Below are positions 20,807 through 52,243 of a DNA stretch of 64,000 nucleotides, piece after piece. Origin of the DNA: Senegalimassilia faecalis (GTDB lineage: Bacteria; Actinomycetota; Coriobacteriia; Coriobacteriales; Eggerthellaceae). Numbering within the stretch: position 1 is the stretch's first letter; each line of letters starts with the position of its first letter. The DNA lies in the NCBI RefSeq assembly GCF_004135645.1, contig NZ_SDPW01000001.1, positions 2,604,001 through 2,668,000 on the forward strand. The letters run 5' to 3'. Position numbers and translations under genes: made by a program. The notes below the pieces were generated by a model. It was not told where the DNA came from and made no database searches. It saw nothing but the letters and a program-made list of their open reading frames with translations.

Positions 20807-21199
20807 TAAAGAAAGCGCGCCCGCGGGAACCAGCTTACTGTCCCGCAGACGCGCGCGTGCGTTTCTGCTGCCTGTTTGTGCAGGCCCGGCTCCATGGCGG
20901 CGCGCGCCACGGCCTGATCAGATTGCGCTGTTGAGCTCGCGCCCTGCGGCGGTTCGGCGCCGGCCCTGCGGCCGTGCGCGCCCGCGCCACCAAGACGCAA
21001 TGCAGTGCAAAGAGCACCCTCATAGTAAGGCTCGCGCCCTGGTATGTCACCGGTTACTTGCCAGTTGTGAAGGCTTTGCGACGCCCCGCCCGGCGCAGCT
21101 GTTGTGCAGGTGGTTGAACTTTGCCGCCAGGATGCTGGACTTTGCCCGTTCCTGTGAGGTGGCGGGATTTTGCTGCGGGGATGGATGGGTCCTGCTGCT

Positions 21200-41317: not shown

Positions 41318-41502
41318 GGTCGAAAGGATTTCTGGCCTGCGGTTTTGTTGGAATTTGCAGCCCAACTCTTGAGGAATCGGGTTGCAAGGTAATCTGACCT
41401 GCGGTGTTGGTGAGACATCGAATTCGATCTGCAGCGCTGAGCGAAAGCACGCCTAGCAGAAAGCGCCAAAGGCGTGCCGCTGGCTTTTCTCGTCTGGGGT
41501 TG

Positions 41503-41729
41503 GCACGATTTCGGACTTACCGAATCCCCGAACAATCGCGCGCGAATTTTCGGCACGATTTCGAACTTTCCGAGCTTCTCAACTTGCTCATGCGAACTTT
41601 TTGGGCAGGAAGTTGTACTTTCCGAATCTGACAACATCGAATCGAGTGGATCAAGGCCCGGAAAGTTCAATTTCCTGCCATTTTCAGCTTCCCCGATGTA
41701 TCTACCCCCGGAAAGTTCGGTTTCGTGCC
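41503..41729. repeat. Five-copy array of a 24-bp repeat, three direct and two inverted (array 1)
   Basis: Copies at 41503-41526, 41553-41576 and 41605-41628 read GGCA(C/G)GA...ACTT(T/A)CCGA. Copies at 41657-41680 and 41706-41729 are the reverse complement. Start-to-start spacing is 50, 52, 52 and 49 bp. A second array with the same architecture but different core bases lies at 47829-48048. Confidence 0.75.
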
Positions 41730-47828: not shown

Positions 47829-48048
47829 GGCAAGAAAAAGGCCTTTCTGTATGTGCACGTGCCTCAAGGGGTGCTCAATGGCAAGAATTGGGGATTCCTG
47901 TAGCCGGCGCGCTCCCTACACGGCTCGAATTGGCAAGAATCCGGTGTTTCTGTATCAAGAAGGGGGGTTTGCGCCTACAGAAAGCCCAGATTCTTGCCAC
48001 GTGGCCGCTGAATTGTGCATGAAGATACAGAAATGGCAGATTCTTGCC
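47829..48048. repeat. Five-copy array of a 24-bp repeat, three direct and two inverted (array 2)
   Basis: Direct copies at 47829-47852, 47880-47903 and 47932-47955 read GGCAAGAA...TTTCTGTA. Inverted copies lie at 47975-47998 and 48025-48048. Spacing is 51, 52, 43 and 50 bp. The pattern matches array 1 exactly in number, length and orientation. The rest of 47177-48421 holds no convincing gene: 47177-47480 should carry the formate dehydrogenase promoter, and 48100-48421 is a GC-rich stretch with open but improbable frames. Confidence 0.75.
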
Positions 48049-52104: not shown

Positions 52105-52243
52105 GCAGAAAAGTACACTTTTTTGCCACTGGGTTATGAATTGCAAGATTCGCGTAATGAACGCTAACCGACCTGCGGTTATGCAAAAATCGATGTGTAT
52201 AATGGGGCTAATTTCGAAGTGGCAAAAAAGCGTACTTTTCTGC
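52105..52243. repeat. 26-bp inverted repeat pair flanking an 87-bp segment with promoter (possible inverton)
   Basis: The left arm 52105-52130 (GCAGAAAAGTAC ... TTGCCACT) and right arm 52218-52243 are reverse complements with a single mismatch. The segment between holds a TATAAT box. The arms also resemble the 24-bp repeat family at 41.5 and 47.8 kb (GGCAA ... TTTTCTG). They sit between the divergent hybrid kinase gene and a NusG-family gene. Confidence 0.7.
52198..52203 (+). promoter_or_regulatory. TATAAT -10 element inside the inverted-repeat segment
   Basis: A perfect TATAAT points rightward to the NusG-like gene at 52333. No good -35 hexamer lies 16-19 bases upstream (GCGGTT region), so an activator or alternative sigma factor may be needed. 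Confidence 0.5.

Follow-up and report, generated by a model that had tools for sequence, protein, structure and literature searches.

Array 2, where three forward copies of a short sequence are followed by two inverted ones within the window (the whole stretch of 64,000 nucleotides of the Senegalimassilia faecalis genome that was analyzed), is one of 24 arrays of this kind in the 2.75-Mb genome. Twelve of them carry the sequence dialect of array 2 (type A) and twelve that of array 1 (type B). We give about an even chance to the reading that these arrays are the dispersed sites of a nuclease-like protein and form a population similar to REPIN-RAYT systems with an unrelated enzyme. Under this reading, array 2 would be one copy, itself non-autonomous, of a dispersed DNA element restricted to the species, with five bipartite sites of double-stranded DNA (three forward, two inverted) in fixed helical phase. 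In the literature nothing was found that describes this element, by sequence, taxon, repeat type or layout.

Architecture of the arrays and their two dialects

The original prediction described array 2 (47829-48048) as three direct and two inverted repeat copies and assigned the same geometry to array 1 (41502-41729), and both descriptions were borne out. The sites of array 2, located by motif and weight matrix (Table 1), follow the consensus TGGCAAGAA-N7-TTYCTGTA over 23–24 bp with start-to-start spacings of 51, 52, 44 and 50 bp, and their identity to the reference copy is 72–100% for the direct copies and 88% for the inverted pair. A scan for geometry only, which uses no motif, scored array 2 at 106 and array 1 at 101, while the maxima of 12 block-shuffled windows were 79–83.

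Table 1. Coordinates of the sites of both window arrays (window positions) and of the two enclosed genes (genome positions)
Feature	Position	Strand	Length	Remark
Array 2 (type A), F1	47829..47851	+	23 bp	
Array 2 (type A), F2	47880..47902	+	23 bp	
Array 2 (type A), F3	47932..47954	+	23 bp	
Array 2 (type A), R1	47976..47998	-	23 bp	inverted
Array 2 (type A), R2	48026..48048	-	23 bp	inverted
Array 1 (type B), F1	41502..41524	+		
Array 1 (type B), F2	41552..41574	+		
Array 1 (type B), F3	41604..41626	+		
Array 1 (type B), R1	41657..41679	-		
Array 1 (type B), R2	41707..41729	-		
pA	847108-848079		324 aa	between type A arrays A846 and A848
pB	813856-814848		331 aa	between type B arrays B813 and B814

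Genome-wide, arrays were counted with one-site patterns for both types plus weight matrices. Allowing at most one mismatch, the type A pattern matches 91 sites compared to 6 for the reversed pattern. The type B pattern gives 41 matches compared to 1. Hence, GGCAAGAATC...TTTCTGTA, which had been presented as particular to array 2, is not private to it. A private sequence for each array was rejected since 12 arrays are common to each dialect; arrays 1 and 2 differ as members of two families. Site agreement within arrays, from which concerted evolution had been proposed, is essentially no higher than between arrays for type A (identity 0.778 versus 0.769, P = 0.046), where sharing an array position does not raise the similarity of sites either (P = 0.53). 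For type B the proposal holds in the left half-site only (0.802 versus 0.761, P = 2e-4; columns 0, 4 and 6), and this agreement tracks the sub-dialects GGCAC... and TGCAR..., each of which is common to several arrays.

All oriented arrays share the 3+2 design or a truncated 3+1 version of it. The F1-F2 gap measures 50–51 bp in every array that holds both sites, and the R1-R2 gap 49–51 bp with B814 (62 bp) as the single exception. The two inner gaps vary solely by steps of 10–11 bp: F2-F3 is 51–52 bp in 17 arrays and 62–63 bp in 7, and F3-R1 is 43–44 bp in 18 and 53–54 bp in 6, with no intermediates in either case. In an alignment of the type B arrays other than B2171, which has both long gaps, the extra 10 bp form one block located in spacer 2 or spacer 3. 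Gap changes of one helical turn indicate a nucleoprotein complex on double-stranded DNA, and since the phase carries over from F3 to R1, the array appears to act as one complex rather than as two independent ends.

Inverted copies could also pair in single strands, as in REP, BIME or REPIN elements or in a structured RNA. The arrays are dispersed and extragenic in a REP-like manner, and RNA folding of array 2 yields z = -4.97, as inverted repeats must; still, we regard this explanation as very unlikely. Paired positions in type A sites lie near expectation (lowest P = 0.11 among hairpin-register pairs), type B sites show no hairpin pattern, with one of eight pairs (positions 9 and 13) above expectation (P = 0.006), and the variable site middles are unmatched among the five sites of an array. 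Rfam gave no match at array 2, and the Y1 (RAYT) transposase family PF01797 has 0 matches in the own genome, whereas 5 of 14 control genomes were positive. A hairpin or RNA element was thus rejected for lack of covariation and of an Rfam match. Type B sites instead contain two adjacent positions that read jointly as AA or as TT (z about 40), a behavior that would suit recognition of double-stranded DNA shape. Elsewhere in the window, a NiCo (nickel/cobalt) riboswitch was recorded at 20836-20931 on the minus strand (E = 8.7e-13).

Copying as units and constraint on the half-sites

The arrays were copied whole, and the copied units have sharp edges. For A1133 and A1875, the closest pair, 80% identity extends over 225 bp and similarity stops 2–6 bp from the outer sites; B1267 and B888 share 76% identity over 163 bp. 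Differences between A1133 and A1875 affect 3 of 70 half-site positions, 14 of 45 in the site middles, 31 of 104 in the spacers and 84 of 109 in the flanks. The contrast between half-sites (3/70) and middles plus spacers (45/149; Fisher P = 3.5e-6) argues that the half-sites have been under selection as double-stranded DNA sites since this duplication. The copying itself was not recent, because the spacer difference of 0.30 is near the four-fold-site difference of 0.32 between the own genome and the same-genus genome G001. Among the 24 arrays there are no near-identical copies and none closer than A1133/A1875, so that no recent movement is seen.

That the arrays are dead repeats in neutral decay, free of present constraint, is the least probable explanation and in our opinion can hardly be correct. 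The missing recent copies would fit it, as would the type A spacers, whose mean identity among eight equal-length arrays (0.32) is near the background of the flanks (0.27), but in the same arrays the sites average 0.75 and the half-site constraint contradicts decay. Site retention does so too: all 12 type A arrays have five sites (60/60 sites kept), and the type B arrays have five sites in 6 cases, four in 5 and three in 1 (53/60 kept). Debris is likewise scarce. None of the 43 exact type A matches lies outside the arrays and 20 of 48 one-mismatch matches do, and isolated remnants are few (a pair of A sites at 1874896/1874946, an A site at 1064522 and a B site at 2176480).

Copying as units would also be expected of MITEs that join, back to back, the three-site left end and the two-site right end of a Tn7/Mu/IS21-type DDE transposon and were moved in trans by its transposase. 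Passages in PMC13370975 describe multiple asymmetric transposase sites at Tn7-like ends, with three well separated ones at the left end of Tn7, and a passage in PMC11208146 describes L1/L2 and R1/R2 repeats at IS21 ends. The arrays resemble such ends in having multiple sites of roughly 20 bp at each end, left and right ends that are unequal, and phased spacing. However, the 18 of 24 arrays with both outer sites present, which were tested, exhibit neither a target-site duplication nor conserved terminal or flanking bases beyond the sites. Unlike the transposons, the arrays carry no cargo and no matching DDE transposase was found; a search with Mu-transpos_C (PF09299) yielded no protein, although its control was also silent. 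Moreover, two independent ends would not need a phased F3-R1 junction. Taken together, we consider the MITE explanation improbable. Descent of the array from the resident IS21-like element was rejected since the ends differ. This element gave ten near-identical IstB matches in the own genome (contig G000:C1, e.g. 2671494-2673783), and the compared copies are 2290 bp long with end repeats spaced by 23 bp and 5-bp duplicated flanks.

Two genes enclosed by array pairs of one dialect

Only two pairs of same-dialect arrays lie less than 2 kb apart, A846/A848 and B813/B814, with a single gene inside each pair (pA and pB, Table 1) and both genes alike in kind, an association noticed after these intervals had been inspected. 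Both genes were missed by a codon-model gene caller. Their products are 47% identical. The two arrays beside pA are inverted relative to each other, whereas those beside pB are in direct orientation. A search covering 1.21 Mb (44%) of the 2.75 Mb, namely 411 kb around the arrays and IS copies plus 800 kb of control stretches, revealed no further homologs.

The C-terminal pattern ADxxWPE-x4-C-x-EY-x-S-x2-FH...DAxRQTAL of pA and pB is one that we take to be Vsr/DUF559-like, and D232, E243, H250, D259 and R262 (numbering of the pB row) are identical in both. Pfam matches to DUF559 are below the curated cut-off of 20.6 bits for pB (E = 0.011, 16.0 bits) as well as for a homolog from Collinsella aerofaciens (E = 0.007, 16.7 bits), and pA has none. 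The likeness to DUF559/Vsr-like PD-(D/E)XK proteins thus consists of the shared C-terminal pattern and weak, sub-threshold Pfam matches. No arrays lie beside the distant homologs of G001 and Collinsella, and literature searches that included DUF559 yielded no report of these proteins flanked by repeat arrays.

Each dialect hence has one locus at which an array pair encloses a gene with a putative Vsr/DUF559-like PD-(D/E)XK nuclease C-terminus. For the array-specific partners suggested originally there is a signal per dialect, in that pA lies between A arrays and pB between B arrays, but not per array. From this co-location we infer that each protein may bind the sites of its own dialect (pA those of type A, pB those of type B), with one phased multi-protein complex assembled per array. 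The arrays would formerly have spread as whole units, probably by means of a pA/pB-type protein that may act as a nuclease, and would be retained now as selection preserves the half-sites. Candidate causes of this constraint are mobility that still goes on at a low level, a function for the host, and sites that restrain their own nuclease.

Since arrays that were copied whole fall into two dialects, each with a gene that looks cognate, and their sites are constrained, a REPIN-RAYT-like population is the simplest account. In the passages of PMC2817692 and PMC3116915 concerned, REPIN/REP-RAYT systems comprise dispersed extragenic repeats with conserved sites and spacing and variable spacers, several flavours per genome, and a gene flanked by cognate repeats. 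On these terms the arrays are alike in being dispersed and extragenic, in their conserved sites and spacing, variable spacers and two flavours, and in the position of pA and pB between arrays of their own dialect, though the protein family is another one. They differ in that Y1/RAYT and hairpin covariation are absent and the candidate partner is nuclease-like, and further in having five phased sites instead of two and 24 copies, compared to usually more than 100 REPs per genome according to PMC2817692.

The original prediction also argued for a previously undescribed element class. What stands of this is a real and apparently undescribed element with REPIN-RAYT as its nearest analogue. That it represents a new class, in which a nuclease-like protein owns dialect-specific five-site arrays that spread via it or serve as its sponge-like antidote, is a possibility we hold only tentatively. 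Either spread via the protein or an antidote DNA sponge would explain why half-sites are kept without serving neighboring genes. Only a few kinds of dispersed repeats in bacteria have a known partner enzyme, and REPIN-RAYT is the model among them. If correct, a second, unrelated pairing of repeat and gene would mean that populations of this sort within genomes had more than one origin, and it would provide a candidate target for Vsr/DUF559-like proteins, a family listed by Pfam as of unknown function. With two genes, 24 arrays and two dialects the system is small, which makes specificity directly testable.

Distribution in relatives and genomic neighborhood

Exact single type A sites have no matches in the same-genus genomes G001 and G002. 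The pair pattern occurs in the own genome and in 0 of 137 other genomes of the family; with up to two mismatches it is missing from G001, and across the order it gives 34 matches in the own genome and 9 in 8 of 256 others, with 8 for the control. A scan of 84,980 species returned 7 single matches, none of which is an array by weight matrix. In 400 kb of G001 the geometry-only scan found nothing above 88, while the own arrays mostly score 91–109, a scan that missed the loci L089 and L092 with the partial arrays B1267 and B2171. For A972, B888 and B1118, the flanking genes show synteny with G001, and the geometry-only scan detects no array there. The intergenic DNA of A972, B888 and A1133 fails to align with G001 and no insertion boundary is readable, the counterpart of A1133 being partly masked. 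Absence from relatives had been put forward as counting against an element. The searches indeed revealed no arrays in G001, G002, the other family genomes or the 256 other genomes of the order, but chance is excluded by the presence of 24 copies in a single genome, and we thus read this absence as lineage restriction.

A phage or plasmid origin was rejected, as there were no plasmid or phage matches and the one match of the viral scan is not an array; pB has no phage match, and no viral relative was found for pA or pB. The geometry-only scan scored locus L220 at 96, which was rejected as an array because it is a simple tandem of heptamers. This long tandem array of GGTGCTC occupies L220:6315-6494.

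Array 2 itself lies between an fdnG-like gene and a kinase gene. Pairing with the immediate neighbor gene, as had been envisaged, is not supported, as the 20 arrays away from pA and pB adjoin unrelated genes. A further explanation is that the arrays are five-site operators of an unrelated host DNA-binding protein for chromosome architecture or regulation, kept in place by host selection, and that pA and pB lie where they do by coincidence. Such operators would account for half-sites that stayed constrained since the A1133/A1875 duplication despite no recent copying, and for the F3-R1 phase, which one complex would need. In addition, dnaA has 13 of the 24 arrays no farther than 270 kb away (KS P = 0.004), but with clusters merged P rises to 0.18 and the enrichment is no longer significant. 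No neighbor gene is common to the arrays, it would be odd for a host function to come in two dialects and to be missing from a genome of the same genus, and the co-location with pA and pB would go without explanation. The parS consensus is of the TGTTTCACGTGAAACA type, and canonical parS-like sites cluster around dnaA at about 0.99–1.05 Mb of G000:C1, marking the origin region. They exist there separately from the arrays, whose motif differs, so that identity with a ParB-parS centromere was rejected. We therefore rate host operators as unlikely, albeit as the strongest of the explanations set against a REPIN-RAYT-like population.

Several further features were observed. Around 1131000-1133300 of G000:C1, the DNA is 97.6% identical to that around 271000-273100 of G001:C2, with a four-fold-site difference of 0.06–0.09 compared to 0.32 overall; this stretch probably reflects recent exchange of an NrfD-type operon. 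At 2582725-2584634 of G000:C1 lies a gene for a large serine recombinase, with a type B array 182 bp away; its 3′ end overlaps a tRNA-Ala, and it likely marks the edge of an integrated element. Finally, an inverted pair of 26 bp at window positions 52105-52243, with 96% complementarity and 87 bp between its arms, is loosely like the array sites and has no second occurrence in the genome by DNA search; it encloses TATAATG and lies upstream of an open reading frame with weak NusG and KOW matches.
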